A stretch of 64,000 bases of DNA from Rhizoclosmatium globosum (lineage: Eukaryota; Chytridiomycota; Chytridiomycetes; Chytridiales; Chytriomycetaceae), in assembly GCA_002104985.1 (NCBI GenBank), contig MCGO01000200.1, forward strand, positions 1-64,000, read 5' to 3'. The notes below the pieces were generated by a model. The model searched no databases and was not told the origin of the DNA. It worked only from the letters and a program-made list of their open reading frames with translations. Positions within the stretch are counted from its first letter, which is position 1. Each line of letters begins with the position of its first letter. The position numbers and the translations under genes are program-made. This document shows, piece after piece, positions 1,822 to 22,332 of the stretch.

Positions 1822-3100
1822 CTATTTTTCGGCATCATGACTTGTGATAGTCACACCACGTCTCTCAGCCTCCTCTAACTTTGCGCGCCAAGCTCTTTTT
1901 ACTCCATACCCAAGGCAAGCCACCTAAGCCAATGATTCAATATATTGGATTCCGAATAGAATGTCGAACTAACCTGTAAAATCAAATCGATGACAGAGGA
2001 AATCCACGCGATATCACCTGCAGATAGTATTCGTCGTTCAATAGAGCTTAACGGCAAAGTGGAACGTACCAGAAGCGTAAAGATACTTTTGAACCTCATG
2101 GTTAAAATAGCCAACACCGATTGCACCCCAATATGACATTTGGATAAACCTTATATTCAGACGAAAATGAGTAAAAACGCAGGATTCATAGCGTTTTAGC
2201 ACTTACTGATCAGCGATGGTCCAAACAGGAGTGAGCAACACACCAATGAGAGCAAATTTCATGTTCAAAGTTTGCTTCGCTGGATCAGAGTGTGGATAAA
2301 CAACTACGTATGCAGTAGTAACGCCAAAGAACATATCCATGGACGTAGTCAATGCTAGTGTAAGACCTTAAGGCTATTTGTTCTATAACATAACCAAAAC
2401 GTACCTTCAAACCAACGAGAGACAACAATCATTTTCTTGGCAGAACCAGCTTGAACGTACCAGTCTCCCGGCCCGTTTTTGTAATCTTTAAACAACTGTT
2501 GGAAACGATCAACGTATTGTTCAAAAGGCTCGCAACGCCTGCCTATCGTAAGAAATAATAGCCCAATAAAGTGAATTCATACCATTCATGCTTTGTATCT
2601 GGATAAATGTCCATGGCAACAGGGTCATATCCAAACTCAGTATCACCGCAGATCTACAACAATCATCATCAGGTGAACGCTATCAAAGGAATATAGACAC
2701 GGAATCTACCTGAAAAAGACCACCGGTGTGATACTGGTCTCCACGCCTATTTGATTGAAATTTAGCATGATCTCCATTAACGCCACCAATTTAGTACCAA
2801 TACGGCAAGATAATGGAAGCCCATTGAGCCGACCAAGAGCAGCAAAGTAAGACCATCATGATAACAACTAAAATGGCAAAGGCAGGAACGTTGGAGTGTT
2901 AGCCAATCGACAATGTGAGGCCCGTGGCCCAATTAAAAGTACCACCCACCTCCAACAATCAACCTCTTGTCTTTCGTCAGGTAGTGTCCAGGTTTACGCA
3001 CTGGGGCACTCTCATCTTCTGAGATAGGGATGGCAGTCAGCTGTTCTGGTGCTGTAGTTGAAGGCTTGTCTGCCGCACTATTGGGGATTTCTAGAGTCAT
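1822..3100 (-). CDS. Four-TM claudin/Sur7-like family protein, copy 1
   Basis: Multi-exon gene. The ATG at 3098-3100 opens a polar N-terminus ending in KPGHYLTKDKRLIVG. After an intron (about 2950 to 2868) comes TM1 (FCCSWSAQWASIILPYW type). The extracellular-type loop reads GDQYHTGGLFQ, then ICGDTEF after another intron, then WRCEPFEQYVDRF and VQAGSAKKMIVVSRWFE. TM2 (FFGVTTAYVVVYPH), TM3 and TM4 (SWISSVIDLILQ) follow. The protein ends ITSHDAEK, stop at 1822-1824. Introns are GT-AG and short. It is closest to copy 7 (37575-38874), which shares the N-terminal block and the ITSHDA tail; these two form one subfamily. The GLFxxC plus later Cys between TM1 and TM2 resembles the claudin/PMP22/Sur7 signature, an inference from motif and topology only. 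Function unknown; a plasma-membrane role is likely. Confidence 0.78.
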
Positions 3101-3333
3101 TTTTTGTTAGTGATGTGGACTCATTCAATCGGAGGAAGAGAAAACGTGGCTGGCTTTTGTGCGGTATGGAGATTTTAAAATGGATGAAAGAATGGATTTA
3201 AGACCTGATAAAGATACAGATAAAAGATATTCTGTATCCTCTGAATGCGGTCTTTCTCTTTTCATTAATTCCATTCATTCTTCCACTTTGTTTTATAATA
3301 GTGTAATTGAAAATCACTGTTCCCAAAAACAGT

Positions 3334-3514
3334 TGTCAAAATAACTCGGTGCGGTAGCGGTAAGTCGGGCTTATCGAGTATAGAAAGGCTGAACGACGGC
3401 TTATGAGGTTCAGGGAGGGCGGGGCAGGACAATGCTCGATTGTCGCGTTTTTCAGAAGATTTCTCTTCCTATATATTATTGAACAAAACCGATGGGCATA
3501 GCCAGATTCTGACA
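3334..3514 (-). repeat. 3' LTR of the gag-only element
   Basis: The 181-bp repeat runs from TGTCAAAATAACTC to GATTCTGACA and matches 5164-5344. It has one extra A near its start, one fewer G in the GGGG run, and T for C near base 3372. In element orientation (minus) this is the downstream LTR. Confidence 0.9.
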
Positions 3515-3998: not shown

Positions 3999-5159
3999 TC
4001 AGTGCAGACCAACACAAGGTTCCCAACCAACATGTTTTGGACCAGCATTCACCAGTTTCTCAGAAGCTCGTTCAGTTATTGCAGTTACAGTCATAAGTGC
4101 ATTTGGGTTAGCATTGTTTGAGGTGTTTGAGGTAGAAGTGGGATTGGATGGATTACTTCCCCTTTTGGTTTTGTTCGGACAGATTCTGCTGATATGATCC
4201 ATTGATCCACAACTCCAACAAGAATTGCAATCCCAGTCTGGATTGTGGGATCCGGGACAGCGTTGACATTGAGGTTTACCACCAGCATAACGTTTGTTTG
4301 ATTGATCAGATCCAGGGTTTCCACGGTGTCGTTTTCCTCCAATTGTAACATTTGCAACAGCTGTTGATTCCTCCTGAATCTTGTTGTCCAATTCAATACT
4401 TTCACAGTAAGCAGTCCAGCAGTCATTTAAATCCTCTTCAATTTCTGCAACAGTGCTGTATTCTTTGATGCGAAACAACATTATAACGCCCGAGAATCTA
4501 CTATCCAATTTAAGCCGAATAGTTTTCTGAGAATTAATATCTAGATGGAACGTTTCACCAATAGCTGTTAACATATCTTCAATTCTGCGGACTTCAGCAA
4601 GAAATTCTTCCATTGACTGATTAGGCTTAATATACAGAGCATTATACAGATTCTTGATCTTTGTATTCTGGTTGCGTTTTTTGGGACCATAGATTCGTGT
4701 AAGTTCGGCCCATAATTTAGCAGGAGTATCAAATGACGAATAATCAGCTTTCATAGATTTTGTGAGACCTTCATGAATAATTTTCAAAGCCGATGTCATT
4801 GCGAGAGCTTCACTTGCTGCACGATCGTCTTCAAGTTGCCAGTACTTCAATCTGTTTTCATATAATTTGAATGACTCATTCAACTCCTTCATTTTTGATT
4901 CATCAATTTTTTCCTTTGTGTTCAACATTTTCACCCATTCTTCTGGTGCTTCTGGACGTTCTGCATTGTTCTGATGGGGTTGATAGGAAGCTTCAAGCGT
5001 TTTAGCCTCTTGCTTTGACATACGAAGAAGGCGGAGGCGTTTCCAAATAATAAAGTTCTTTGAATCAAGCAGGATGACTTTAGACTCGTTCTGCTGCATA
5101 TCTCCATTGTCTCGTGAGTTGCTATTCATCTTACTATACTGCGATAAACCTGGGCTCAT
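3999..5159 (-). CDS. Gag-like protein with CCHC zinc knuckle (Copia type)
   Basis: The 386-residue frame is uninterrupted. The N-terminal two thirds look like the UBN2/Copia Gag capsid region: an early DSKNFIIWK stretch, LWAELTRIYGP, and a block around KNLYNALYIKPNQSMEEFL. Near residues 310-325 is a zinc knuckle, CWSCGSMDHISRIC, with the C-x2-C-x4-H-x4-C spacing. The protein stops soon after, at GWEPCVGLH, before any protease or integrase motif. The ATG at 5157-5159 sits five bases inside the 5' LTR boundary and is part of the tRNA primer-binding site. Expected role: packaging of element RNA into virus-like particles in the cytoplasm. The frame looks intact and could be expressed. Confidence 0.85.
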   Translation of the reverse strand: MSPGLSQYSKMNSNSRDNGDMQQNESKVILLDSKNFIIWKRLRLLRMSKQEAKTLEASYQPHQNNAERPEAPEEWVKMLNTKEKIDESKMKELNESFKLYENRLKYWQLEDDRAASEALAMTSALKIIHEGLTKSMKADYSSFDTPAKLWAELTRIYGPKKRNQNTKIKNLYNALYIKPNQSMEEFLAEVRRIEDMLTAIGETFHLDINSQKTIRLKLDSRFSGVIMLFRIKEYSTVAEIEEDLNDCWTAYCESIELDNKIQEESTAVANVTIGGKRHRGNPGSDQSNKRYAGGKPQCQRCPGSHNPDWDCNSCWSCGSMDHISRICPNKTKRGSNPSNPTSTSNTSNNANPNALMTVTAITERASEKLVNAGPKHVGWEPCVGLH

Positions 5160-5161: not shown

Positions 5162-5163
5162 CT

Positions 5164-5344
5164 TGTCAAATAACTCGGTGCGGTAGCGGTAAGTCGGGCT
5201 CATCGAGTATAGAAAGGCTGAACGACGGCTTATGAGGTTCAGGGGAGGGCGGGGCAGGACAATGCTCGATTGTCGCGTTTTTCAGAAGATTTCTCTTCCT
5301 ATATATTATTGAACAAAACCGATGGGCATAGCCAGATTCTGACA
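5164..5344 (-). repeat. 5' LTR of the gag-only element
   Basis: The 181-bp partner of 3334-3514. In element orientation (minus strand) it lies upstream of Gag and should hold the promoter. Immediately outside is ACAGT (5345-5349), the right copy of the target duplication. Confidence 0.9.
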
Positions 5345-6909: not shown

Positions 6910-7167
6910 ATTTGATAAGAATAAAATAAAGCTGAGTGTGCGCATCATAGATATTATTATGCCATTTTCTTCTTACCGTAGCCGTTTGTCATCTATCCGC
7001 TTCCTTTTAAGCAACGAATTCGAATACTGATTTACAGCCATCTTAACAACGTTCGAACTGTGGAAATGTGAATCGTTCGACGAATATGTTCGAGTGATTC
7101 GGTTATTAGAACAAGTTTGGTAACTAAAACGCTTCAACGTTGCATGTGTCGAGATACTTTCATGACC

Positions 7168-8120
7168 TGTGAAACCTCTAACTGGTCTCAATCCATCGAC
7201 TGGACGACGACAGACCTCGATCGTTATAGATTTGGAAGTAATGTCCATCCTACCCTGCAGGTCCATTGGCCCCAATTGCAGAGCGGGAAATGTGCGGTTC
7301 CTAAGCACGTTAGAGCATCGTAGAACTAACAGTAAGGGAAGGGAAAGAACAGGAAAGAGAATAACAATAAAAGAAACAACACAACTAATAAAGAAATACT
7401 CCACCTCGTAGCTGCTCGACTTACCCCACTGAAGAGCGCTTTTAGGACTAGTGCCGCATGACCTCAACACGGTCTATAGCTCCTTTTCCTACGCTCCGAA
7501 CGACCAAGTCCAAACGTTAGAACGTGTCATTATATATGCTCGGTTTAGCAATCCGTGGGGAACTAGGTTCCTGCCTCCGCTCAAATATAATAAACTGTCG
7601 AGTCGCACCATGATCACCCCGCTGTACCTCTTGATCCATGGCTGCACAACTCCCCTTTGACTAAACGACGTCACCACGGTTATTTCCAGAAGCCGTTATC
7701 CGGTCCTAAGCGCTTCACGGTCCATTGACGTTATCCACGTTACTTTTGGCCAGACCTACAACCCACAGGTCCCCTAACTAGAGATTCTTCCTGTGCCCAT
7801 TGTACCTGTGCTACTTGTTCAACACTATCGCTCAGAACTCGCAACGAGATTCCCTGGCGTGAATATGGTCGACAACAGCGCTCACCCGCAGCGACTGTCG
7901 AAGGGTCCTTGAATATACTCTCTATGCTCGCCACAGCACTTCAATTATAGACAACTTCAATCTTTACTGATTTACCGCTGATCCCCCATAACAACAAATA
8001 AATAAGTAAAGTACATAAAATAACAATATAATAAAACGTAAAAGAATAAATACAAGCCCTGTTGCCAAGTCTTTGAACCTAGGTAATGAACAAGAAGAAC
8101 CCCTTGTGAAGTACTTCACA
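7168..8120 (-). repeat. 3' LTR of the Ty3-type element
   Basis: The 953-bp repeat runs from TGTGAAACC to CTTCACA. It matches 21376-22328 at a constant offset of 14,208 bases, with no difference noticed. In element orientation this is the downstream LTR. Confidence 0.93.
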
Positions 8121-8479
8121 GTGACCCCAAAAACAATCTTGTGGTTGCTCCGTCAGCCACGTGGGTACGTGTCAGAAGCAGCAAGATGTTGAATAATATT
8201 TTAAATATATGAGGTATGACAAATCACACCGCTGGGTAGCGTTAAGCATGAAATGTGAGGGACCTAGGGTTTCGTCACTGGAGGGTTTGTCCTTAAAGTT
8301 CACCAAGCTAGTATTCAAAGGCCTGCAACCTAAAATAACACCTTATAAGTAACAACACTAAATACACACCATACCAAATAAACCGAAACGCCAAATAACC
8401 CTACACCTAACATCTCTTGCCTCAATATCTACAAATAGTCATCCTGACTTATCCATCTGTAACAAGGCAACATATATCC
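8121..8479 (-). other. 3' untranslated interior of the Ty3-type element
   Basis: About 360 bp between the ORF2 stop and the 3' LTR. On the element strand the last bases before the LTR read TTTTTGGGGTCAC, the only candidate for a polypurine-type plus-strand primer; it is weak. No gene is seen. Confidence 0.5.
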
Positions 8480-11400
8480 TTACTTTACAGTAGGTCGTTC
8501 TCTCAGTGTCCTATTATGTTGCGTTGCTGGTGTATTCACTTTAGGTGAGACTCTAGCCTTGGAGGTTACAGTAGTCTCTGACTGTTGAACAGTCTTGGTC
8601 TTCCTTTCAGATTCCTTGGTCTTGCTCTGTGTCACAGTCCTCTTCCTTGTAGACTTAGTGCCAGCAAATGCAGCTTTCACAATCTGCGGTGTCAGCAAAA
8701 GATTATCATCAATTTTGAGTAGCTTCGGCATAGGTGAGGTACGTGTCCATTCTCCATTCAGCCAGTCCTGGTAAAGTTCATAATACTCAGGGTTTGTCTT
8801 CTTAACTGAATTATCCCAAACATCATTGAGGATAGCCTCAGGCATTCCTGCATGGGGTTGCCAACTAGTATTCCTGGACTTGTTCTGATGTAGCCATTCC
8901 ACAAGATACCAGTAAGCACGGTTCTCAAACTTAATCTTCTTCACATTAGATATAACATAAAGTGGATCTGATCTATCAATCTCAGACCACTCTGGATCAA
9001 ACTTCTTACGAAGCATCTCATGGGTCTCATCAAGAGACTGGTAAGAATCTGTTGGACGGCGGTTTGTGATAGTATATTTCATATACTCGTGCATCTCATC
9101 CTCAAAACTAACATTGGAGTCCTTCAGTGCCTTTGCTGCTGAATCAATAGGCCTTGTCGGTGTAAAGGGCCGTAGTCTACTGACATGTACTTTCCTGACA
9201 ACAATTACTCGTCCAGGGAAATTCTCTATGATAGTGTATTGGGTTTCCGTATCCCCTCCTGAGCGGTCATAGATCCTAACAGGGCCTACCCACCTGGGGA
9301 CAAACTTCTTTGTTACTTTCAGTCTTTGAGCTTCAGCTTCAATAGGTACTGCTAACCATGCTCGATCTCCTATCTCAAAACTGTAAGGAGCCCTGTCCTT
9401 CTCTAAGGATGTTGCTCTCAACTTGTCCTGTGCTTGCATTACTTTGTCCTTCACAACATCATAGGCAGCCTTCAATCCAGTTCTCAACCTCTGGAGGACA
9501 AGTTTCCTTATTTCCTCACTAGTTTCTTCAGCATATTCCTCATTATCCTGAACAAGGAAAGTCTCTAGGTCAAAGTTCTGGTCATCCACTTGTGGACTAA
9601 GGACAGTCTTATATGTTAAGTCCTGATATGCAAAGTCAATTCCTAGACAAGGTGCTCGGAGGAACTTGAAGTCTCCAGACCCTTGCCATACAGGTTTATC
9701 CTCAAGCATAATTATCTTCTCAAATCGCGGATCAAAAATGATACTATTCCAATCTGTAGGACGTGCACCTTCAGTTCCAAATGAACGGTAGGAACAAGTA
9801 AGTAATCCCATCTTCAGTGAAAGGTAAGGACCAATAGCCATTTCTGATATGTCACCAAGCGACTCTGGGGGAGGTCCAGGGTGAACAATTCCTGGTCTAC
9901 TATAAATAGACACTACTCTAGGTGCTGGGAAACGATCTAACTTAATCAAGTAAGGGGTATGTCCTGGTCGAATACGATAAGATCCCTTAAGATCAACACT
10001 GGTTCCGTCCTTCAAGAAGAAGTACCCCGGTATATGCTCCTTAGCATTTCCTTTGCCTCTGGGTTCAAACACCAAGACTAACACATCTAGAGCAAAAGTC
10101 TCATAGGCATCTTTTAGCACTTGCCAAAAGGGTACATCTTTCTTATAACCATGTATCTTAAGACATAACTTATCCTTGAACTGCTTCATGTTGGAAAACC
10201 TTGCAACTGCAATTCGAGGGAACTGGGGTTGCTCTCCTTTCATCATCATAAATGATGTGTGGGTTTCCTCAACATAATCCACTGGTCTGCAATCACTAAC
10301 ACTGTGACTAGGTGTAAAGCTAGAATCCTCCAACTCAGTGTTAACGTTACATACCGTTTCCTTATTGACTTCTGCTATATCCAGGAGATCCAACTCATCT
10401 GGGTATAACTCGTCATCAGGGCTGACCCCAAAAAACAAGTCTGTGGGCAGCCTTGCATCCCTTCCATGCCACATATAAAAAGGTGTTTCACCTGTGGTCG
10501 AATGTACATGTGTTCTGTACGCAAATAGGACAAATGGGAGTATCTCGTCCCAGTCGTCAAACTCATACTTATTGATATAAGCCCTTATTCCTTGAGACAA
10601 GGTCTTAATAACTCTTTCAACTGTACCATTAGCTCGCGGCCAATAGGGTGCAGTAAATGTCTTTTCAAAACCTAGGGCCTTTGACAACAACTTCATCAAG
10701 TTATCACTGAAAGGTGCGCCTCCATCTGTGTGAAGGAACACAGGTATTCCAGTTCTAACAAATACTTCTGTCACTAAGGCCTTTATCACCGTCTCAGCCT
10801 TGAGGTCAGGGATAGGAACAGCTTCAACCCACTTTGTAAAACTATCAATACACACCATGACGTACTGACAGCCTGTCTCTGAGCCTTCTTTCAAGGGACC
10901 TACAAAATCAACGAACATACGCTCATTGGGGTAATTTCCTATGGGTATGGGGTGAAGATATCCTTTCCTCTGACGGTGGTCTTTTGTCTTTTGACACGTC
11001 TCACAACTCTCACAGTATGACTTAAAGTCTTCAATTATTGAAGGCCACCAAAATCTATCCAACAAAGTTGGTAGTATCTTCGAATAACCCAAGTGTGCTC
11101 CATAAAGGTCGGCATGGTGACGGTCAAATATCTCCTGTCTCATCCCATCAGGGATGCATAATGCTATACGACCTGGTTGTCGCCTCACTGTCTTAGAAGT
11201 AAGTTCAGCAACATGGTACAACAATCCGTTCTTATCAAGAACCATGGACTGGGCTGTGCGCACAATTCCTTTGAACTTGGATTCGCGGGTCTTACCTGTC
11301 CTCATGAAGAATAGGACTTCACTAAAGAACTCGTCCCCTTCTTGCAACTTCTTAATCCTAGCCACATCATATCCCTCAAATGGTATTGTTTCAAGGTTAT

Positions 11401-14400
11401 AATTACACTCATAGGTGAAAGGGCTCTCTGCCTTGGGATCAAGCCAAGTGGTCTCATCTGGCATATCTGCAAAACCATACTTATGTAAGTTCACATGGAG
11501 TTCCAGTCTTAAGTGATCACTTAAGCTCTTGTCCATATTCACTCGCACATCAAAGTCTTCCTCTTTGATTCGCTTGTCAACCAAGACATGATCGATTCTC
11601 CAGAAAGGGTATTCCTTCTTATCCAGTCCTTTGAGTAACCAAGTGGCACCCATTTCCTTGGGGTGTTTAGTCCTAAATCCATCTGTGAAGTTCTCAGTCA
11701 TCTTCAAGAACCAAAGTTGTTCTTCTGGTGTTATAGATGAAGGGAACCTGTTTTCAAAGCCTTCCTCCTTTACAAATGGGAGTAAGTCCTCTGCTGTTGG
11801 TGCAATATTAAAGTCACCCAGGACAAAAACATAGTGCCGCTCTCTCAGAGAGTCACAGTACTTCTTGAGTTTATCCAGGAAGCGCATCTTATATTCATGG
11901 CGCTCTGACTTACGCATTCCACTAGGAACATAGGTTGTTACAAAAGCAAAGTCTGCTAGTTTAAGAGTCAAGATACGACCCTCATCTTCCTCGTTAACGG
12001 ATGGACCTTTTTCGGTCTTGACCAATTCAGAGTCAAACTTTCCATTCAACTCCTTCCTCCAAAGTATGGCAACACCTGCATAGCCTGTTTGTGTATCATT
12101 AAGTGAACAGTTCCAATTTGGAAGGTTCTTCAATGATTCAACAAGTTTCTGGCTTTTGCCGTCTTTACCAACTCTTGTTTCCTGTATACACCAAATACTA
12201 CTCTTGCTTTGATTGAGAAAGTGTTCAATGTTATCCACCGTATGAAATGCTGGACTTATTCCATGCTTATCATTATGTTTCTTCAACAAGTTTCTCAGGC
12301 CATTACAGTTCTCATTCGAAATGTTTACTGAAGGGCATTTTATGCCTCCCAAAGGTTTTAGCGATGTACGGATGTCATCAACCGAACGGATAGTCTTGTC
12401 TCGACTCTTCCGGCGCATCATGCGCTTTGAAAGCTCCGTAATTAGTTGATGGGTTGTTTCCTGCTTCATTTCAGTCTTGTTCAACATAGACTCATAAAGT
12501 TTCTTGAACCTGTTTCCAGCGTACACTACTTTTTCAGGCGTTGGATTGTGATGTCCATACATATAGCAATCTAAAAATGTTTCGAGTGGGGGGTGTTCCA
12601 TCAAGACAGTGTTGGCTGTTTCTGCTGAGATATCCGACTCAGTGTCAGAATCATCTTGGTCAACCTCCTGACCATCGGTCCCACTTTTTTGAGCATCACC
12701 TCTCCGAGGTGATAATGTATCCTTGTTATGGAGTTTCACTCTTGAAAGGGCATCAGCCACAAACTGAGTTTTCCCTGCTACGTGGTGTAGTGTGATGTCG
12801 TAGTCTGCAAGTGCATATGCCCATCTTGCAAAGCGCCCTGTCAGCTCACCCTTCTTGAAGAGAGGTAAGAGAGCTGAGTGGTCTGTTTCGATTGTAACTG
12901 GCCTATTCCAAATCCATCTATCAAATGAATTGATAGCCCAGATTACAGCAAGTCCTTCCCTGTCTGTGTTACTATATCTTTGTTCCACAGGTGATAAGGT
13001 CCTGGAAATAAAAGCGACTGGTTCCTTTTTATTTCCCCGCTTGACATAGAGGGCACCGCCAAGGGCGTAGCCTGATGCATCACACTCAATGATGAATTCA
13101 TCATCTACTGTTGGGATTGCAAGAACTATGTCTTCCTTTAACGCTTTCTTAATGGTTGCAAAAGAGGCTTTACAACTCTTGTCAAAATCGAAGAAAATGT
13201 CGTCTCTTAGCAGTCTGAACAAGGGCGCTGCTTTTGTTGCATAACCTTCCATATATCTCTTGAAGTAATTTGCAAATCCGAGAAACTGTTGCAGTTGCTT
13301 CTTAGTCTTGGGTTGAGGCCAATTATCAATATCCATGATTTTGTTAGGTTGTTTCCTCAATCCTTCCTTTGAGATGACATGACCTAGAAATGGGAGGTCT
13401 GTGTAAAAGAACTGACATTTCGACGGTTTGATCTTCAAGTTATAATCATTTAATCTCTGAAGCACTAACTCGATATGCTTAAGATGGTCTTCCGCATTAT
13501 CAGAATAGATGATAATGTCATCGATATAAACTAATGCAAATACGCATTTGTAGTTAGCAAGTACAGTATCCATTACTCGCTGAAAACTAGGAGGTGCGTT
13601 TGTTAAACCAAAAGGTAATACTTCAAACTGGAACAATCCTTGTGATGTTATAAACGCTGTCTTCTCTTTGCTTTCCGGTGACAGTGGAATCTGCCAAAAT
13701 CCTGACTCCAGATCAACAGAACTGAAGAATAGTTTATTGCCAACCAGTCCAAACATGTCGTCTATGTTCGGAAGAGGGTACCTATCCGGTACCGTTATTT
13801 CATTCAACTTTCTGAAGTCAACACAAAATCGCCAACTTCCATCTGGTTTCTTAGCAAGTACTACGGGTGCTGCATAAGCAGACGTTGAAGGGCTAATAAT
13901 ATTAGTTTCCTTCATCTTCTTAATATGTTCCAATATAACTAATGCGCGACCTGGTCCTTCTGGATAGGGATACTGTCTAGGTATACGCGCATTTTCCTTG
14001 ATTTCAATCTCATGGGGAGGTACCTTAAGGTGACCTGTTGTGACATGTTTGTTGAACACACCAGGGAACTTCAGAATTATCTTGATTAAGCGTTCCTTAA
14101 TATCGGTTGTGTCAACTAAATGCTCCAACTTTGACATATGCGAAAGATCAAATTTCGCAATCAGCTCCTCATCTGAGTTTGCAGCTGGTTCGCGAATATA
14201 GTCTCGTTTATCTTCCTTTGAAGTGTCATGCGTAGGTGTTGAATCCATGATAATGTTATCAACTTCCTTGTCCTTAATAGCTTGTGGTGTCACCTTTGGT
14301 TCCGGTTCTCCTTGTGGTAGTTCTCCTTTCTGAGCAGCTTCTGCTTCTGCGTCAAGTTTACGCTGAGTTTCCTCAAGTTCGCGCTTCTTAGCCTCCTTGG

Positions 14401-17400
14401 CAATAGAGAGGAATAAAGTGACTTGTTCCTTCTTACGCGCAAATTTAAAAAGGGGATATTTTGTAAAACGCCCTTTAAACAGCTGCCTTGCCGATTTGGC
14501 TTCCGAAAGGTTGAGAGCTTCCTGTACTTCATCTGACTTTGGGTGTTTTGTGTGGAGCATGTCGATTTCATCATCCACTTCAATAATATCAGTATCAAAG
14601 GTTAAGTTCGAAGCTCTAGTTGCTGGTTTTGATGGAACCATATCAAACTCATCGACTCTCTCCAAATTCTTAAGCTTCTGAGACTCATCAAAATCCTTGA
14701 GTTTTTGAATTGCACGAGGTAATGGATCCAAGGAGTCTGCCTCATTGGGAATTTCCTCGTACACATTTTTCCATAGGTGTTCTTCGAAGTCGCCATCGTC
14801 TCCGAAGTGTTGCCAGAGATGTGAACGGTCTTCTATATCGAAAACACCTTCCTGCTCACGTTTTAGAATCTTTTCCACGTCGTCCATACTCTTTGGATTG
14901 TGCATTTGACAAATCAATGCCAACTCACTCATTGCAAAAGAGTCTTCCAGTAGAGATTGCGGAATCTGATCCACAATACTCACCATTGACATAGCACAAC
15001 TATCTATATCCATTAGTGGTGTACCTTTCTTTACAACTAATTTCTTCTGGCCAACGTATAGGACAGGTACTTTGATAGAATCTCGTTCCAATAAATCACT
15101 TGTTTTAAACGCGAGGCTCTCAGGATAAATGCCTCTATCCTGCATCTGTCTAAGACCCATTGCTAAACAAGTCTCAGCGACGTCATCACGCATTAAACCA
15201 TGATCCTTTGGAAATGAGACATGAACACCAATTTTTGTAGGTCCTTTTTCAAACACCGTGTCTTCTGTGAAAACAAGTCCAAAGAAAGACTCTGGGTTGT
15301 AAATAGTTTCGTAAAACTTGATTGGTGTTGAACGCGAAACCCGTTTCTTTATAGGAATATTCTCATCCCCATAGAGATAATACTCATATTTCTGGTTATC
15401 TTTCCAGTTCACCATTTCATTTTCAAAGTTGAACTTTATTCCAAACTGATCGAGTTGTGGTGTACCAAGTAGTACGTCGCGTCCTTTCGCTATCTCCATA
15501 CAAACATGAAGTCGAATCTTTTGGACTTGGGAACGTAGAAAAGTTTCTCCTGGACAGAACTCGACGTCTACATATCCTAAAAGTGGTTGTTCACCACCAA
15601 TCCCTCTTGTTGATGTAGGTCGCGGGTACTTATACACCAAGGGTCTCGTCGGGAGTCTATTCACTAAATCTAAAGTGATAAGACCACAACTACTACAGCT
15701 ATCTCCCATCACGTTGGGAATGTCTATTCCTCCGACATTTCCTGCAAATGTTGAAATAGTGTATCGTCGATTCTTCTTATTCCAATCGAGCGAGGCATTT
15801 CGAAGGTACTCCTCAGCATTCCACGATTGCGTGTCACTTATCCTTGTGATTGCAAAAGAGTCGTCCTGAAATCTTGCAACGACAGTGTTTCCAATTGTAA
15901 CCCGTTTCTTGGGTTTCATTACGTTCCGAAATTCTTCGCGACACATTTCCTCAAGTGTAAAAGGTTGTTCCGCATATAAATACCTTGAAGGTTTCAAAAC
16001 TGTCGGGAATCTATGCATCGGTAGTTTCGGCGTCGCGGCGACCTTGACTTTTGGAATGGCCGTCCACGTGTGTTCGATGGATGGAAATAGTTGAGCCTGA
16101 AACGCTAATGATTCTGGATCCACTATTTCTTCAGCCCTAAACACTTTTGTAGTCTTTCCTTCTTCTACTTCTGTGTCTGCTTCAGCAGTTTCATCATTCG
16201 AAGAGGAAACATTTCGAACACCAACATCATTTATTGCAACTTCAATTAAACTCGAATCTACTGTGTTTAAGGTTTCAAGGGAATCCCCAATCACGTCCAA
16301 GTTTAAGTCGTCGACAGGGAGTAAGGTACTAAAATCAGAAGAGGGAACTACTAATATGGGTGAAATAACTTCAGAAATTAACAGAGACTCCTCTCTGTTA
16401 AGCAACATCTCCTTGACTGGAAGTTCCAACTCGGTTTGAACCTGCACGTTGGTGTGGGGTTGTTCCGGTGGGTTGGATTCCTTGACCATATGCTGATCTT
16501 CCTGAAGGGGAGTTGTTGTTTTCTGTGTTTCCGTATAGTTAGATTCTAACTTTGTTTCGGTCTCCTTACTCTGTGCATTTGGACAGTTACGTCTGAAGTG
16601 ACCAATCTCGCCACATCCATAACATTTCACATTGTCCACGTAGCTTTGAACATACGACTCCAATTCCGCTTGAGTATATGGCTCATAACCATACGGTTCC
16701 AACTCAATACTGTAGTACGTCTGCGCAATGCTCAAAAGATGAGTTTCGAAAATGTTCGGCGGTACTCCCAATGCGTCCGGATCACCATAACCCATTTGCA
16801 CAATATGCGTCTGATGATAAGGGGTTGGCATACGCGGGATAATACGGCGTTGTTGTTGTACTGGAGCAGTCGGTTGTACCGACGTTCGACTCTGTTGAAA
16901 CGGTGATTCTACCTTCGAAGGAAATTGGGTACGTTCCTTTTGAACAGTAGAATCCTGTGTCTTTGACACTCCTGACAAATAATGGTCGTTCATGAGAGCA
17001 AAGTCATAACCCCATCCTTCTGTCTTATCCAAGTATCCAATGAGGTCGTAGAAACTAACTTTCTTGTCGTTCCATTTACACTTCTCAATGACTTTCTTGG
17101 ACTTTCCTTCCTTCGTTACAACTTTAAACTTGTGGTTTTGGAGGGACGTGAAGGCTTTCATGATGCGATGTGACTTTTGTGCCTGGTATTCTACTGATAA
17201 GCCATTATACAATGCTTGCTTTTTGTCCTTATTGCTCAGTGTCACATTGAGAGTAATATGGGCGAGATCAATTTCGCAGCCTATCTCGGTAGCATTCACA
17301 GTTTTAAGTCTGAAGTCCTTAATAAAGTTATTCTTGCGGGTCTCGTCCGAAAATGGAGACTCCGCAGTCTTTTTGAGAAAATCCTTGATTGACTTCCAAA

Positions 17401-20038
17401 GATTGAGTCCCGGTTTTGTTTGACTCAATATCAGTTGCACTTGACGTCCAATCGAACCGTCAAACTTTGTTCCGTTCAAAAATCCTCTCACAAATGCATT
17501 GTCGTCCACGAAAACATGTGAGAGCATACGTTTCGCCATTTCCGCCTTTTCGAGCCAAACTTGCGCCGATGCTTTGTCCGTTAACGGCGGTTGTTGTTCC
17601 TGAAGTCCTTTGATGAGACTTTGGCTCGACATGACGTTGAAGCTATGTGTCATAGCGTTCTGCGATTCTATTAGAGAAACAAAGGCGTTATTAGCCAATT
17701 GATAAGATGACTTAGAGTCAGTCAATTTTGCCACTGCTCGGATAATACCTTCTTTCTTAGAGATACCACCAGCTTTCCTAGGCGATGAAGGGCCTTTCAA
17801 AGGAGCGACTTCCGATTCAGACGACAAATTATCACTGTCGCTCGAAGAGTTGTTGGACGAACCAGATCCTTCTGGGTCCGAAGAGTCGTCGTCGTCGCTG
17901 TCTCTTGGCGGAAGCTTTTTAGAAGAATAATTCCTTTTCGAATTACGACTGTTGTCCTCTGAACTGTGTCCGTCGGTACTCGAGGTTTCCTCCTCGTCCG
18001 GTTCATTATTAACGGTCGCAATTAATTGTCCTTTGGCAATGTCGAGGGCAAGGGCTTTCTGTTTCTCGGGTGACAGATTCGCAATTGCCAACATACTTTT
18101 TGTTGGTGACGACTGTTTGCTGGACGTAAAGGGTTCCAGCGCTACATCTATTTCGTCAAGGAAGTCCGTTTTCCTCGAACGAGATCCAGAAACTTTGGAG
18201 GGTGTCGTCTCCATTGGAGTTGACACAACTTCGTGATCATACACGACTCCCATCATTGATAAATATTCCATCAATCCGTACTTAGGTTGAGTCCATCGAT
18301 AGTGACTGATTCCCAAGTGCTTTTTGAAGTTTTGCAGGCATACAATCAATTTGTTCCAAGCAACGTCCGAATAGTTTTCTTCAAGATACTGGATTTCTTG
18401 TTGCCCGTCCTTAAAGAACTGCATGATAGAGCCGTCGCTTTTCAGTGAATGATAGGCAGCCTGGTAAAGGAACGGACGTAGGATACTCCTTTCCTCAGAG
18501 AAATCTCTGTACAAAACGCGTCCGTCCGTGAGAATGTAGAGTACGTCGTTCTCGTCTCGGTGACGTATGTGGATTTCAAAGGCTTCGCCTAACTCCAGTT
18601 TCTGAGGCATTTCACGAACAAGCCTAGGTTGGCGATTGAAATTCCAGGTAAAAATTAGTATTGCGAGAGTCAGAATGACTGGGATGGCGAAATATCCTAC
18701 TTCTCTCTCGCTCGCTGTGTCTTTTTTGCCGAACGTGTTTCGGCTATCGCCATGCGATTCATGAGATCTATGATCTCGTTCTCCGTACTGGCAGTTTGTT
18801 GCTGCTTCATCGATCGCGTTTTCATTGTTCTCGTTGTAGTTGCCATTGGGTGAGGTTGCTACAGTGACACTTGTTTGAAGAATGAATAGAATTGTCAAGG
18901 CTCCGCCTCTTGAAAAAATTCTCATAAGTCTCAAACAGGAGAAAAGAATTCTATTGAACGGTCTAAACCCAAGCGGGTACTCAAAATAAATAATCGCACT
19001 ACTAAAGAAATGAAGGAACAGTCTACTCCTGCCGGTCTCCGCGGCCTCCGTATCCCATTGTGGGAGGAGCTGGATTTTAGACGTCATTAATAGTTCCTCC
19101 TTTGTATAGAGTGTCATACCTCCACTAGAACTTCCACGATCGGAATTCCAGGATCCACGACCTCCTCGACCTCCTCTGGAGGTACTTCCTCGTGTGTTGC
19201 GGTAGTCACGATCACCGTGACTGTATCCACTTCCGTATTGGTCGTTACTTCCATAGTAGTCCTGGTCCAACTCAAAACGACGCAACTCCTCCTCGAATTC
19301 ACGTTCCGAACGTTCGTGTTCCGCACGTTGACGCTCTCGTTCGGCTTTCTCGCGTCCCATTTCACTCCGAACAATGTGTTCCCCGTGTTTTTCCTGAAGG
19401 AGACGTAGGGTTGTGTCTTTGATATCCTGGTACGTCGAACCAACTGGGGTAGCCGCCTTACTCAACCTGATACGTCTGACGGTTTCCCAGAATTCCTTGT
19501 CGTGTTGGTAAGTGACTCCTATTATTTTCGTTGTTTTAGTTGATTCCATCAACATAAGAAACCCCGTTATCATTGGGACAAGGCGTACTAAATAGTAGGC
19601 CAGCAAGGTAGTTGTTATCCCAACTAACCCGCCAATAAAAGTATGATAGGGATCATACGTACTTGCGTCGTAGCCCATATGGGCAATCCTCGACGTGGTC
19701 AAATTGTTCGACTGCCGACGTGCCTCCTGGCGATTTGCGCGGCGATCGGTTGGACAAGGTCTCTTGGGTGAAGTATCCGGGCTTCGACTACGCTGACGTT
19801 GAGGGTTTGGCGAAGGGCGGTTTCGAGACTCGCGATCAGAGTTCTGGTAGTTGTTGCGCGGCTCGTTGACAGACACTTGGCGACTGAATGTTTTCCGAGT
19901 CAGGTCCGTTTTGAAGTTAGGGAACTTCTCCTTGATCCGGGGCTCGCTGTCCTGTAGTTCCACGTAGGTGATTTTTTCTTTTCTAATTAAGGTATAAACC
20001 TTGTTTAGAAAGTCACCGAACTTCGACGAGGCATTCAC
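8480..20038 (-). CDS. Giant Gag-Pol polyprotein with EEP endonuclease between RNase H and integrase
   Basis: Uninterrupted 3852-codon frame; the first codon counted (20036-20038) is GTG and the frame stays open upstream, so entry is probably by frameshift from ORF1. Approximate residues: hydrophobic segments 131-163, 377-394 and 445-466; acidic/serine-rich 650-720; zinc knuckle CYGCGEIGHFRRNC 1137-1150; protease 1440-1535 with DSC at 1446-1448 where DSG/DTG is usual, and LLGTP; reverse transcriptase 2000-2240 with YIDD at about 2171; RNase H 2310-2435; EEP domain 2570-2845 (NCNGLR, IQETR, GDFN, RIDH, SDH); integrase HHCC about 2973-3015 and D3044, D3105, E3141 (exact DD35E spacing); unknown insert about 3210-3560; GPY/F-like WVGPVRIYDR about 3585; chromodomain-like YWYLVEWL about 3710. 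Expected products: capsid, protease, RT-RNase H, endonuclease and integrase. Confidence 0.92.
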   Translation of the reverse strand: MNASSKFGDFLNKVYTLIRKEKITYVELQDSEPRIKEKFPNFKTDLTRKTFSRQVSVNEPRNNYQNSDRESRNRPSPNPQRQRSRSPDTSPKRPCPTDRRANRQEARRQSNNLTTSRIAHMGYDASTYDPYHTFIGGLVGITTTLLAYYLVRLVPMITGFLMLMESTKTTKIIGVTYQHDKEFWETVRRIRLSKAATPVGSTYQDIKDTTLRLLQEKHGEHIVRSEMGREKAERERQRAEHERSEREFEEELRRFELDQDYYGSNDQYGSGYSHGDRDYRNTRGSTSRGGRGGRGSWNSDRGSSSGGMTLYTKEELLMTSKIQLLPQWDTEAAETGRSRLFLHFFSSAIIYFEYPLGFRPFNRILFSCLRLMRIFSRGGALTILFILQTSVTVATSPNGNYNENNENAIDEAATNCQYGERDHRSHESHGDSRNTFGKKDTASEREVGYFAIPVILTLAILIFTWNFNRQPRLVREMPQKLELGEAFEIHIRHRDENDVLYILTDGRVLYRDFSEERSILRPFLYQAAYHSLKSDGSIMQFFKDGQQEIQYLEENYSDVAWNKLIVCLQNFKKHLGISHYRWTQPKYGLMEYLSMMGVVYDHEVVSTPMETTPSKVSGSRSRKTDFLDEIDVALEPFTSSKQSSPTKSMLAIANLSPEKQKALALDIAKGQLIATVNNEPDEEETSSTDGHSSEDNSRNSKRNYSSKKLPPRDSDDDDSSDPEGSGSSNNSSSDSDNLSSESEVAPLKGPSSPRKAGGISKKEGIIRAVAKLTDSKSSYQLANNAFVSLIESQNAMTHSFNVMSSQSLIKGLQEQQPPLTDKASAQVWLEKAEMAKRMLSHVFVDDNAFVRGFLNGTKFDGSIGRQVQLILSQTKPGLNLWKSIKDFLKKTAESPFSDETRKNNFIKDFRLKTVNATEIGCEIDLAHITLNVTLSNKDKKQALYNGLSVEYQAQKSHRIMKAFTSLQNHKFKVVTKEGKSKKVIEKCKWNDKKVSFYDLIGYLDKTEGWGYDFALMNDHYLSGVSKTQDSTVQKERTQFPSKVESPFQQSRTSVQPTAPVQQQRRIIPRMPTPYHQTHIVQMGYGDPDALGVPPNIFETHLLSIAQTYYSIELEPYGYEPYTQAELESYVQSYVDNVKCYGCGEIGHFRRNCPNAQSKETETKLESNYTETQKTTTPLQEDQHMVKESNPPEQPHTNVQVQTELELPVKEMLLNREESLLISEVISPILVVPSSDFSTLLPVDDLNLDVIGDSLETLNTVDSSLIEVAINDVGVRNVSSSNDETAEADTEVEEGKTTKVFRAEEIVDPESLAFQAQLFPSIEHTWTAIPKVKVAATPKLPMHRFPTVLKPSRYLYAEQPFTLEEMCREEFRNVMKPKKRVTIGNTVVARFQDDSFAITRISDTQSWNAEEYLRNASLDWNKKNRRYTISTFAGNVGGIDIPNVMGDSCSSCGLITLDLVNRLPTRPLVYKYPRPTSTRGIGGEQPLLGYVDVEFCPGETFLRSQVQKIRLHVCMEIAKGRDVLLGTPQLDQFGIKFNFENEMVNWKDNQKYEYYLYGDENIPIKKRVSRSTPIKFYETIYNPESFFGLVFTEDTVFEKGPTKIGVHVSFPKDHGLMRDDVAETCLAMGLRQMQDRGIYPESLAFKTSDLLERDSIKVPVLYVGQKKLVVKKGTPLMDIDSCAMSMVSIVDQIPQSLLEDSFAMSELALICQMHNPKSMDDVEKILKREQEGVFDIEDRSHLWQHFGDDGDFEEHLWKNVYEEIPNEADSLDPLPRAIQKLKDFDESQKLKNLERVDEFDMVPSKPATRASNLTFDTDIIEVDDEIDMLHTKHPKSDEVQEALNLSEAKSARQLFKGRFTKYPLFKFARKKEQVTLFLSIAKEAKKRELEETQRKLDAEAEAAQKGELPQGEPEPKVTPQAIKDKEVDNIIMDSTPTHDTSKEDKRDYIREPAANSDEELIAKFDLSHMSKLEHLVDTTDIKERLIKIILKFPGVFNKHVTTGHLKVPPHEIEIKENARIPRQYPYPEGPGRALVILEHIKKMKETNIISPSTSAYAAPVVLAKKPDGSWRFCVDFRKLNEITVPDRYPLPNIDDMFGLVGNKLFFSSVDLESGFWQIPLSPESKEKTAFITSQGLFQFEVLPFGLTNAPPSFQRVMDTVLANYKCVFALVYIDDIIIYSDNAEDHLKHIELVLQRLNDYNLKIKPSKCQFFYTDLPFLGHVISKEGLRKQPNKIMDIDNWPQPKTKKQLQQFLGFANYFKRYMEGYATKAAPLFRLLRDDIFFDFDKSCKASFATIKKALKEDIVLAIPTVDDEFIIECDASGYALGGALYVKRGNKKEPVAFISRTLSPVEQRYSNTDREGLAVIWAINSFDRWIWNRPVTIETDHSALLPLFKKGELTGRFARWAYALADYDITLHHVAGKTQFVADALSRVKLHNKDTLSPRRGDAQKSGTDGQEVDQDDSDTESDISAETANTVLMEHPPLETFLDCYMYGHHNPTPEKVVYAGNRFKKLYESMLNKTEMKQETTHQLITELSKRMMRRKSRDKTIRSVDDIRTSLKPLGGIKCPSVNISNENCNGLRNLLKKHNDKHGISPAFHTVDNIEHFLNQSKSSIWCIQETRVGKDGKSQKLVESLKNLPNWNCSLNDTQTGYAGVAILWRKELNGKFDSELVKTEKGPSVNEEDEGRILTLKLADFAFVTTYVPSGMRKSERHEYKMRFLDKLKKYCDSLRERHYVFVLGDFNIAPTAEDLLPFVKEEGFENRFPSSITPEEQLWFLKMTENFTDGFRTKHPKEMGATWLLKGLDKKEYPFWRIDHVLVDKRIKEEDFDVRVNMDKSLSDHLRLELHVNLHKYGFADMPDETTWLDPKAESPFTYECNYNLETIPFEGYDVARIKKLQEGDEFFSEVLFFMRTGKTRESKFKGIVRTAQSMVLDKNGLLYHVAELTSKTVRRQPGRIALCIPDGMRQEIFDRHHADLYGAHLGYSKILPTLLDRFWWPSIIEDFKSYCESCETCQKTKDHRQRKGYLHPIPIGNYPNERMFVDFVGPLKEGSETGCQYVMVCIDSFTKWVEAVPIPDLKAETVIKALVTEVFVRTGIPVFLHTDGGAPFSDNLMKLLSKALGFEKTFTAPYWPRANGTVERVIKTLSQGIRAYINKYEFDDWDEILPFVLFAYRTHVHSTTGETPFYMWHGRDARLPTDLFFGVSPDDELYPDELDLLDIAEVNKETVCNVNTELEDSSFTPSHSVSDCRPVDYVEETHTSFMMMKGEQPQFPRIAVARFSNMKQFKDKLCLKIHGYKKDVPFWQVLKDAYETFALDVLVLVFEPRGKGNAKEHIPGYFFLKDGTSVDLKGSYRIRPGHTPYLIKLDRFPAPRVVSIYSRPGIVHPGPPPESLGDISEMAIGPYLSLKMGLLTCSYRSFGTEGARPTDWNSIIFDPRFEKIIMLEDKPVWQGSGDFKFLRAPCLGIDFAYQDLTYKTVLSPQVDDQNFDLETFLVQDNEEYAEETSEEIRKLVLQRLRTGLKAAYDVVKDKVMQAQDKLRATSLEKDRAPYSFEIGDRAWLAVPIEAEAQRLKVTKKFVPRWVGPVRIYDRSGGDTETQYTIIENFPGRVIVVRKVHVSRLRPFTPTRPIDSAAKALKDSNVSFEDEMHEYMKYTITNRRPTDSYQSLDETHEMLRKKFDPEWSEIDRSDPLYVISNVKKIKFENRAYWYLVEWLHQNKSRNTSWQPHAGMPEAILNDVWDNSVKKTNPEYYELYQDWLNGEWTRTSPMPKLLKIDDNLLLTPQIVKAAFAGTKSTRKRTVTQSKTKESERKTKTVQQSETTVTSKARVSPKVNTPATQHNRTLRERPTVK

Positions 20039-20042
20039 GGCA

Positions 20043-20969
20043 TCAACGATCGCAGCCGGAATAGGGACGATCTCGTCGACCTCCGATACTGGGACGGGTC
20101 TGGATGAGGCACCAGGATTGGGGGGAATTAGCGGTGACCACTGGAACGGGCACGTCCAATGGCTGAACGTCGACGTCCTGGCATTTCAAGACGGCCTTGC
20201 CCTTCGGGGATTGTGGAGGGACGTCCTGATCGACCTCCATTTCGACGGGAACGGAAGGTGAGTCTTCGGTGTTGACGCTGTTCAAATCTGATTCGCGACA
20301 GGTGACTACAGGCTCCGAAGAAGACGATCCAGCGACAATAGGAGTTTCCAAAGGCACGGTAGTGGCTGTAGTGGTAGGATCTGCTGTAGTAGTAACAGGA
20401 TCGACCGTATTGGCAGTGACAGGATCGACCGACAAATCAAGATCATCCCCGTCCACTTCCATAGGCTCGCGCGAGAGCGACGTCTCTCCGAGCATTCCTT
20501 CGAGTCCCGTATAATCCACATCCGCAGTAAGATCAGCTGAATTAGCCGAGGGTTGAGTTTCATCATTTGGGGGGTCTTCGATAACAATTTCAGCCGACTT
20601 CGGCTGCTTTCCACGCACAACTTTTGGCGCTTTAGTTTTCGATGGTTTTGGCAATGTTGCTGGAATGACAACAGGATAGTCGGGATGGAGCTTGTTGTAA
20701 TCATTTCCCAGCTTTACAACAAGTTGATGTATAGTATTGGCCTGGGGGTATATGTCCGGACGGATGGAGACTTCCCTCAAAAATTGAGGATAGTTGTATT
20801 TGCAGTAGCTAATAAACGTCCCATGAAGGAACTCCTTGTCATTCTCTTCCAATGGACCTCGTGCGATTCTTTGGTACATTTCGAGAATGATTCTCATGCC
20901 ATGTGCGTTTAATTTGAGAGTCTGTGTCTCAAAGTAGGAATCCTTTTGGTGGTCTGTAGTAGTAGCCAT
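20043..20969 (-). CDS. ORF1 of the Ty3-type element, unknown N-terminal polyprotein part
   Basis: 308 codons from ATG at 20967-20969. The first 100 residues are ordered-looking (AHGMRIILEMYQRIARGPLE, FLHGTFISYCKYNYPQFL). The rest is Pro/Thr/Ser/acidic-rich. I recognise no domain. It ends in CDR-stop five bases before the counted start of the giant frame, one frame apart (+1). The last 30 codons read poorly (PQSWCLIQTRPSIGG), while the giant frame reads well upstream through the same bases (VPVSEVDEIVPIPAA). The switch therefore most likely lies at the six-base C run (plus-strand G run 20120-20125). This can be programmed +1 frameshifting at CCC-C or a one-base error. If joined, the product would be about 4170 residues. 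Confidence 0.75.
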   Translation of the reverse strand: MATTTDHQKDSYFETQTLKLNAHGMRIILEMYQRIARGPLEENDKEFLHGTFISYCKYNYPQFLREVSIRPDIYPQANTIHQLVVKLGNDYNKLHPDYPVVIPATLPKPSKTKAPKVVRGKQPKSAEIVIEDPPNDETQPSANSADLTADVDYTGLEGMLGETSLSREPMEVDGDDLDLSVDPVTANTVDPVTTTADPTTTATTVPLETPIVAGSSSSEPVVTCRESDLNSVNTEDSPSVPVEMEVDQDVPPQSPKGKAVLKCQDVDVQPLDVPVPVVTANSPQSWCLIQTRPSIGGRRDRPYSGCDR

Positions 20970-21375: not shown

Positions 21376-22328
21376 TGTGAAACCTCTAACTGGTCTCAAT
21401 CCATCGACTGGACGACGACAGACCTCGATCGTTATAGATTTGGAAGTAATGTCCATCCTACCCTGCAGGTCCATTGGCCCCAATTGCAGAGCGGGAAATG
21501 TGCGGTTCCTAAGCACGTTAGAGCATCGTAGAACTAACAGTAAGGGAAGGGAAAGAACAGGAAAGAGAATAACAATAAAAGAAACAACACAACTAATAAA
21601 GAAATACTCCACCTCGTAGCTGCTCGACTTACCCCACTGAAGAGCGCTTTTAGGACTAGTGCCGCATGACCTCAACACGGTCTATAGCTCCTTTTCCTAC
21701 GCTCCGAACGACCAAGTCCAAACGTTAGAACGTGTCATTATATATGCTCGGTTTAGCAATCCGTGGGGAACTAGGTTCCTGCCTCCGCTCAAATATAATA
21801 AACTGTCGAGTCGCACCATGATCACCCCGCTGTACCTCTTGATCCATGGCTGCACAACTCCCCTTTGACTAAACGACGTCACCACGGTTATTTCCAGAAG
21901 CCGTTATCCGGTCCTAAGCGCTTCACGGTCCATTGACGTTATCCACGTTACTTTTGGCCAGACCTACAACCCACAGGTCCCCTAACTAGAGATTCTTCCT
22001 GTGCCCATTGTACCTGTGCTACTTGTTCAACACTATCGCTCAGAACTCGCAACGAGATTCCCTGGCGTGAATATGGTCGACAACAGCGCTCACCCGCAGC
22101 GACTGTCGAAGGGTCCTTGAATATACTCTCTATGCTCGCCACAGCACTTCAATTATAGACAACTTCAATCTTTACTGATTTACCGCTGATCCCCCATAAC
22201 AACAAATAAATAAGTAAAGTACATAAAATAACAATATAATAAAACGTAAAAGAATAAATACAAGCCCTGTTGCCAAGTCTTTGAACCTAGGTAATGAACA
22301 AGAAGAACCCCTTGTGAAGTACTTCACA
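21376..22328 (-). repeat. 5' LTR of the Ty3-type element
   Basis: 953 bp, ends TGTGAA and TTCACA; equal in length to 7168-8120 and apparently identical. In element orientation it lies upstream of ORF1 and should carry the promoter. Confidence 0.93.
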
Positions 22329-22332
22329 GACC

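Follow-up and report, generated by a model that had tools for sequence, protein, structure and literature searches.

An Xth-type AP endonuclease domain within the Gag-Pol polyprotein of Ty3-type retrotransposons in the chytrid Rhizoclosmatium globosum

Introduction

Long terminal repeat (LTR) retrotransposons and retroviruses are generally considered to leave the handling of damaged cDNA mostly to their host, and the retroviral dUTPases are the well-known case of a DNA-hygiene enzyme encoded by the element itself. The present work deals with a further enzyme of this sort, found in a Ty3-type LTR retrotransposon of 15.2 kb in the genome of Rhizoclosmatium globosum. The element lies on the minus strand of the window, i.e., the whole stretch of 64,000 nucleotides that was analysed (contig MCGO01000200.1, positions 1 to 64,000), and it has one large frame, which carries a putative Xth-type abasic (AP) endonuclease of the EEP superfamily.

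Several papers describe accessory enzymes in retroelements. Non-primate lentiviruses that express a dUTPase encode it between RNase H and integrase (PMC4531489), and a dUTPase-like domain has been reported between protease and reverse transcriptase (RT) in LTR elements of fungi and rotifers (PMC6431247). Transfer between elements has been proposed for the DEDDy exonucleases of bdelloid retroelements, and the same source gives no significant departure from neutrality for the accessory nuclease of the bdelloid Juno/Vesta elements (PMC5408684). Complex transposons that bear numerous extra domains are mentioned in a survey of LTR elements of fungi, which shows them in a supplementary figure (PMC3248453), and Exo_endo_phos domains in fungi have been assigned to long interspersed nuclear elements (LINEs) (PMC10799480).

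The endonuclease domain and its active site

A sequence-only reading of the window had placed an exonuclease III/AP-endonuclease domain between RNase H and integrase in a single frame of 3852 codons. The Pfam domain order confirms the placement, and the NCBIfam model TIGR00633 and the PDB relatives confirm the type of enzyme. Pfam also confirms the Ty3/Gypsy layout of RT, RNase H (RH), and integrase (IN) around it (Table 1). The match of the frame to Exo_endo_phos (PF03372) is significant, with an E-value of 2e-12 and 47.8 bits against a cut-off of 24.5, and the domain scores 120.9 bits with TIGR00633 (xth) against a curated cut-off of 99.05. The best sequence relatives in the PDB are exodeoxyribonuclease III and APEX/APE1 chains, with E-values of 6.9e-20 for 5j8n, 1.3e-15 for 2o3c, and about 1e-14 to 1e-12 for most other APE1 chains. 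The domain is 23-29% identical to the 55 database proteins aligned. Judged by these scores, the match to the EEP domain lies far beyond chance.

The catalytic residues of the exonuclease III/APE1 family are eight in number (N, E, Y, D, N, D, D, and H), and the window domain has all of them. This test speaks for an intact active site and not for a subfamily, since an EEP of another kind from the host (L066) also has all eight; the LINE endonuclease L053 has seven of them. The subfamily is indicated by TIGR00633. Eight EEPs were scanned with this model, drawn from families A, C, and D, from clade II (three), and from clades III and IV (one each), and all score above the cut-off (106-130 bits); five places of family B (on contigs C43, C214, C366, C184, and C86; C-numbers are contig labels throughout) reach 115-136 bits. 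The only LINE endonuclease compared, on C46, scores 38.8 bits and stands at a distance on a long branch of the EEP tree. A LINE-type identity was ruled out on these scores and on this tree position, which are those of one LINE endonuclease, and the window domain is Xth/APE-like rather than like that endonuclease.

Copies, families and clades in the genome

The genome searched comprises 56.9 Mb in 420 contigs. Its 39 matches to the fungal-specific family PF04082, which gave no match in any of 14 control genomes, mark it as fungal. The window EEP as query gives 50 matches in it. Near-identical copies with the same junction over the whole query are present on C363, C401, and C246 (99-100% identity), and a fifth copy on C366 has the same junction and a frame that is broken within the EEP. 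The junction is not an assembly join, because it is the same in these four contigs. An assembly join or a one-off chimaera, the pitfall that the sequence-only reading had named, is thus ruled out by the near-identical copies on other contigs together with the diverged families; the domain recurs in copies and in several families.

The window element belongs to clade I, which comprises families A-D and has the EEP between RNase H and integrase. Where they are well matched, the other families of this clade are about 57-61%, 47-48%, and 42-43% identical to the window element in the EEP, and about 62-66%, 59%, and 55% identical in RT-RH. A second set of Ty3-type EEP bearers (clades II-IV) has an RT only 27-29% identical to that of the window element. 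The EEP lies 151-160 bp after the RT-RNase H match in clade II (C90:238k, C387, C383:220k, C13, C203, and C397) and before the RT in clade III (C368, C412, and C383:76k, with C301 alike by position) and clade IV (C146, C347, and C411). RT, RNase H, the integrase zinc finger, and the EEP share one frame in C368, C383, C90, C13, and C397 according to Pfam; the integrase core model is matched among these only in C383, and the D, D, and E of the core can be aligned in clades II and III. In C146, the EEP shares its frame with a match to RNase H and with an RT match under the cut-off, and no integrase was seen in the stretch examined. The RT matches adjoining the clade-IV EEPs are weak (E 1e-9 in C146, 1.6e-9 in C411, and 3e-4 in C347).

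A genome-wide search with TIGR00633 gave at least 67 matches, at least 35 of them at or above the cut-off; both counts are lower bounds, as only the best candidates were scored, and C411 is among the 35 only together with its frame neighbours. A Ty3-type RT lies within 1.4 kb on the same strand in 34 of the 35, with the EEP after the RT in 29 and before it in 5, and the remaining match (C54) adjoins an integrase. This comparison used 58 of the 95 RT matches, as same-place fragments and weak ones were excluded. With 34 matches beside an RT and the 35th beside an integrase, none looks like a free host gene; the six-frame search reads genes exon by exon, and a host gene divided into exons could receive a lower score. 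The matches that fall short of the cut-off comprise fragments of these families, the second clade-III family (C383:78k/C301), and some ten matches that score 64-85 bits and lie in long open frames.

Some further observations concern these and neighbouring genes. The 64-85-bit matches include C212:299580, C69:32583, C368:92074, C360:325459, C380:4702, C212:228482, C405:30491, C410:22738, and C377:69971; most lie in long open frames, none adjoins an RT match used, and they are possibly LINEs or further retroelements. The host genome has an endonuclease IV (EndoIV, Apn1-type) gene. Since the Apn1 and dUTPase genes are each found on two contigs with matching scores (C109 with C372, C124 with C125), the assembly may hold two haplotypes, with copy numbers approximately doubled. 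The host EEP L066 (C113:429280-429966) has a 2'-5' RNA ligase-like domain joined to it in an open frame, and no link to a retroelement was seen there.

Copies of the window element also differ in length. The span from LTR to LTR is 15.2 kb in C114 and C366 and 11.2 kb in C401, C363, and C246. A comparison of window positions 16313-20010 with C401:26040-28300 (L078) shows that C401 is without some 3.7-3.9 kb that precede Pol in the window copy and contain the CCHC knuckle; C401 may be a Gag-deleted form that is mobilised in trans and whose Pol remains under constraint. In C363, most of the RT match is absent, the RT match adjoining the EEP being a fragment of 57 residues, and the deletion differs from that of C401.

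Constraint on the domain

All eight catalytic positions are kept in L070 and in 26 of the 28 aligned retroelement EEP loci, many of which are near-identical copies; the other two loci are matches too short to cover one or two of these positions. Synonymous sites are saturated in most pairs, which leaves a usable omega (ratio of nonsynonymous to synonymous change) of the EEP from two close pairs. In these two near-identical pairs of family A, omega of the EEP is 0.028 and 0.056, with few changes in each; RT-RH gives 0.063 and 0.037 in these pairs, and IN gives 0.031 and 0.032. The family-B row C86 did not enter these comparisons, and the integrase value of the family-D row C257 is disregarded, as it was out of frame. 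Between families A and B, where synonymous sites are saturated, the nonsynonymous distance (dN) is 0.31 for the EEP, 0.33-0.35 for RT-RH, and 0.33-0.34 for IN. The integrase triad is kept in the aligned rows of clades I, II, and III, and its D, D, and E columns are invariant across seven aligned elements. By these measures, the constraint on the EEP resembles that on RT and integrase.

History of the capture

The RT trees set clade I apart from clades II-IV, and with metagenomic Ty3 proteins added, EEP-less elements stand on both sides; a profile search found no EEP in those added proteins. A single RT clade of EEP bearers (clades I, II, and III) is rejected by the approximately unbiased (AU) test with p 0.00027, for a group that was named only after the tree was seen and that should precede it. 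The EEP tree likewise has two groups, clade I and clades II-IV (100/99 and 98/98). Both come together against 13 bacterial ExoIIIs (97/94) in a tree from which the LINE row and one host EEP were left out and which has no eukaryotic APE1 rows. The RT result by itself would point to independent captures, and this union of the EEPs weakens that reading.

The domain was taken up at least once, and it now occupies two places of the polyprotein in two distinct clades of Ty3 elements. The trees would fit two captures from a similar source, one eukaryotic source, or one capture followed by transfer between elements, and the last two are kept viable by the grouping of the EEPs against the bacterial enzymes. 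A metagenomic protein of 1548 aa (P0149) is the sister of clade I in one RT tree (90/91) and is unresolved in another; a profile search found no EEP in it, and its precomputed Pfam list has a SET domain (PF00856).

Relatives in protein databases

A protein search with a Pol piece of 1601 aa including the EEP gave 1411 candidates, none of them at E <= 0.001. With only the EEP as query, 375 proteins were retrieved, and among the matches listed (120) the named ones are exodeoxyribonuclease III. An EEP-IN profile search, which scored only the 7999 candidates sharing most words, found 50 proteins; four of these have PF03372 (P0155, P0161, P0165, and P0170), and none of the 50 is a Ty3 Pol with this domain. 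Scans of IMG/VR gave no relatives of the RT or of P0140 (described below) and one EEP match at 25% identity, with neither RT nor IN nearby.

Xth and EndoIV enzymes have unrelated folds, and AP-site incision is common to both. The metagenomic protein P0140 (1741 aa) is a Ty3-like Pol with an EndoIV match at residues 1378-1660, which scores 307.5 bits with TIGR00587 (nfo; cut-off 129.65) over model positions 2-274 of 279, and 192 bits with PF01261. The RT of P0140 sits in the sister group of clades II-IV.

Structure of the window element

The two LTRs are paired by blastn over 954 bp at 100% identity (7168-8121 with 21376-22329), and trimming to TG..CA gives LTRs of 953 bp with the short inverted ends TGTGAA..TTCACA. 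Because the LTRs are identical, end in TG..CA, and are flanked by GGTC on both sides, the window copy is a recent insertion with integrase-type ends. The LTR as query has 36 matches in the genome, of which 16 span the whole LTR.

Table 1. Features of the window element, in the order of its own strand
Feature	Window position	Strand	Residues of large frame	Basis
Target-site duplication GGTC, upstream copy	22329..22332	-		flank letters read
5' LTR	21376..22328	-		953 bp, TGTGAA...TTCACA; blastn and ends read
ORF (open reading frame) of 308 aa, just before the large frame	20043..20969	-		Pfam: no match
Gag-Pol frame, 3852 codons	8480..20038	-		no internal stops
CCHC zinc knuckle, end of Gag	16577..16627	-	1138-1154	PF00098, 22 bits (cut-off 20.8)
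Reverse transcriptase (RVT_1)	13373..13852	-	2063-2222	132 bits
Ty3-type RNase H	12800..13183	-	2286-2413	PF17917/PF17919, 99.7/95.5 bits
Xth-type EEP (AP endonuclease/exonuclease III)	11513..12310	-	2577-2842	PF03372, TIGR00633, PDB relatives, catalytic residues
Integrase HHCC zinc-binding domain (Integrase_H2C2)	10979..11155	-	2962-3020	PF17921, 63.6 bits
Integrase DDE core (rve)	10640..10930	-	3037-3133	PF00665, 37.8 bits
3' LTR	7168..8120	-		953 bp; blastn and ends read
Target-site duplication GGTC, downstream copy	7164..7167	-		flank letters read

Certain parts of the element went without a match. The Pfam scan of the frame gives no protease, and a retropepsin-like motif is seen by eye only. 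TGG is absent where a primer-binding site is expected after the 5' LTR (by eye, with the two tRNAs of the window compared), no exact match of at least 8 bases, as for self-priming, is found, and no standard tRNA primer site was recognised. Residues 3640-3852 have no Pfam match at E <= 0.5, with a chromodomain-like stretch seen by eye near the end, and there is no significant Pfam match in the approximately 1100 residues upstream of the CCHC knuckle. Within the latter, residues 1-700 (17939-20038) have two hydrophobic, membrane-like stretches by eye and nothing above the Pfam cut-off. A stretch of about 200 residues that separates the integrase core from the C-terminal part (residues 3240-3450, at about 9690-10320) likewise has no Pfam match and aligns partly with families B-D.

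Elsewhere in the window, a gag-like ORF lies on the minus strand at 3999-5159, with a copia-type match (PF14223) and a CCHC match that are each slightly under the cut-off. It is surrounded by a direct repeat of 183 bp (3333-3514 and 5163-5344, 98%), and the whole is possibly a small non-autonomous LTR-like element.

Proposed role and rival explanations

That several Ty3 families carry an Xth-type AP endonuclease with an intact active site suggests a repair tool for the element's own DNA copies. On balance, we lean towards the view that a captured enzyme of this type, within the Gag-Pol of an autonomous-looking Ty3/Gypsy element, incises abasic sites and clears the 3' ends of cDNA. Of the roles suggested in the sequence-only reading, repair of abasic cDNA is thus the one favoured. 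The Xth-level scores, the kept active site, the constraint, and the integrase-type insertion of the window copy speak for this view, as do the EndoIV of P0140 and the place of the dUTPase in lentiviruses. The EEP would be packaged with RT, RNase H, and integrase as part of Gag-Pol. During or after reverse transcription, it would incise abasic sites that arise in the cDNA from uracil excision or base loss, and it would clear blocked 3' ends so as to leave a 3'-OH that RT can extend. A larger share of the cDNA would become integrable, and integrase would insert the repaired product in the ordinary way. Because the domain is found in two clades at two polyprotein positions, the enzyme is probably released, or tethered only loosely, when it acts, and does not form part of a fixed RT-IN geometry.

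A broader version of this view is plausible but falls short of what we would call probable. It holds that Ty3 elements repeatedly gain a base-excision-repair step, with two unrelated AP-endonuclease folds (Xth, and EndoIV in P0140) incorporated at three sites of Pol (following RNase H, preceding RT, and following integrase), the Xth enzyme circulating as a module between distant lineages of one fungus and the particle mending its own cDNA.

Several points weigh against a repair role. Enzymes of the Xth family also act as 3' exonucleases and 3' phosphatases and show RNase H activity, and AP-site cleavage therefore need not be the activity under selection. An AP endonuclease that comes without a glycosylase or a ligase could destroy uracil-bearing cDNA rather than rescue it; for example, UNG2 and APE1 of the virion are described as degrading edited HIV-1 DNA (PMC2427051). 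Ty3 elements without the EEP exist in the same genome, i.e., C77, C365, C388, and C264 by Pfam (C77 and C388 bear a Pfam chromodomain), and C399 on the sole basis that the genome list has no PF03372 match there. The clade-III family C383:78k/C301 scores about 68 bits with TIGR00633, under the cut-off, with its eight positions kept (L070). The EEP is less constrained than RT in the pair of families C and D (dN 0.64 vs 0.38), and the EndoIV case is a single metagenomic protein with one member sequence.

The further activities of the Xth family open the way to another reading, by which the EEP processes cDNA ends or primers, as an RNase H-like enzyme or a 3' exonuclease that removes primer remnants or trims 3' ends for integrase, and does not act in abasic repair. 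The family evidence (TIGR00633 and the PDB relatives) fits this equally, and in clades I and II the EEP has RNase H and integrase as its neighbours. However, adjacency to these two is not essential, because clades III and IV place the EEP before RT; the EEP-less Ty3 elements must process their ends unaided; and P0140 carries EndoIV, which incises AP sites and clears 3' ends as Xth enzymes do but has little exonuclease activity. We regard end or primer processing as fairly unlikely. Action against a host defence, directed for instance at retroelement DNA with modified bases or uracil, or at nucleic acids of the host, is quite improbable: maintenance in several families of one fungus would fit an arms race, and a role against host silencing has been proposed for accessory domains in retroelements (PMC6338049), but the low omega speaks of constraint and not of rapid change, in two close pairs only.

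A LINE-style nicking of target DNA, through which the EEP would help to choose or prime the insertion site, is very improbable, although LINE endonucleases belong to the same superfamily (PF03372) and clades III and IV show a LINE-like order of EEP and RT. The role in target choice that the sequence-only reading had ventured is not supported, as the domain is Xth/APE-like and the window insertion has integrase-type ends, with complete LTRs, a 4-bp duplication, and an intact integrase triad; all eight EEPs scanned lie above the Xth cut-off, as against the LINE endonuclease of C46. The LINE control is thin, because the approximately ten 64-85-bit matches (C212, C69, C360, C380, C405, C410, C377, and others) may include LINE endonucleases closer to Xth. 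The least probable reading, and a highly improbable one, is that a captured host exon is carried as a neutral passenger. Retroelements do capture host genes, and the copy C384:148848, nested in family D, has RT-RNase H and integrase with the EEP stretch missing. It is the only EEP-less element found within clade I; its deletion of about 1172 bp shifts the frame, by a reading of the open frames, and the copy also has a stop in the RT-RNase H stretch, so that the sole deletion found sits in a broken copy. The passenger reading was rejected on the EEP omega (0.03-0.06) and on the conservation of the active site over deeply separated families.

Comparison with known systems

Both the element and the enzyme are of known kinds, and it is their combination for which no description was found. 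The claim of the sequence-only reading that no LTR lineage with this layout has been described has held up in searches of the open-licence literature, in which no description of a Ty3 Pol with an Xth-type EEP was found (most subscription journals and the Repbase reports are outside this scope); an earlier description possibly exists. If the proposed role is true, a selected AP endonuclease in Pol, with two clades and an unrelated counterpart, would mean that damage to cDNA is a serious enough problem for elements to encode the next repair step, and one small domain makes it directly testable where and how retroelement cDNA is repaired. There is also a warning for genome annotation, as a match to Xth in a fungus of this sort can mark a domain of a retroelement and not a host repair gene.

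The window element resembles the fungal Ty3/Gypsy elements (Metaviridae) in its LTRs, CCHC knuckle, RT-RNase H-integrase order with HHCC and DDE domains, and short target duplication, whereas the Xth-type EEP within Pol, the unusually long frame (3852 codons), and the lack of a Pfam match to a chromodomain set it apart. Similarly, its EEP is like exonuclease III/APE1 (TIGR00633) in scoring above the curated cut-off, in having all the catalytic residues, and in its ExoIII/APE1 relatives in the PDB, but it is a domain of a retrotransposon polyprotein and not a free repair enzyme. The LINE APE-type endonucleases share with it the EEP superfamily and the EEP-RT order seen in clades III and IV; the window element is set apart from them by the subfamily of its EEP (Xth, with a single LINE endonuclease as the comparison) and by its LTRs and integrase. 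Other parallels are functional. The bdelloid Juno/Vesta elements, with a DEDDy exonuclease or a GDSL protein as ORF3, also have the same accessory nuclease in separate LTR lineages, for which sharing has been proposed, but their nuclease is a different one and is encoded in a separate ORF3 (PMC5408684). The lentiviral dUTPase and the window EEP are both extra DNA-hygiene enzymes in one and the same slot of the polyprotein (PMC4531489). The two enzymes are unrelated, and the dUTPase prevents the incorporation of uracil, whereas the EEP would act on abasic DNA.

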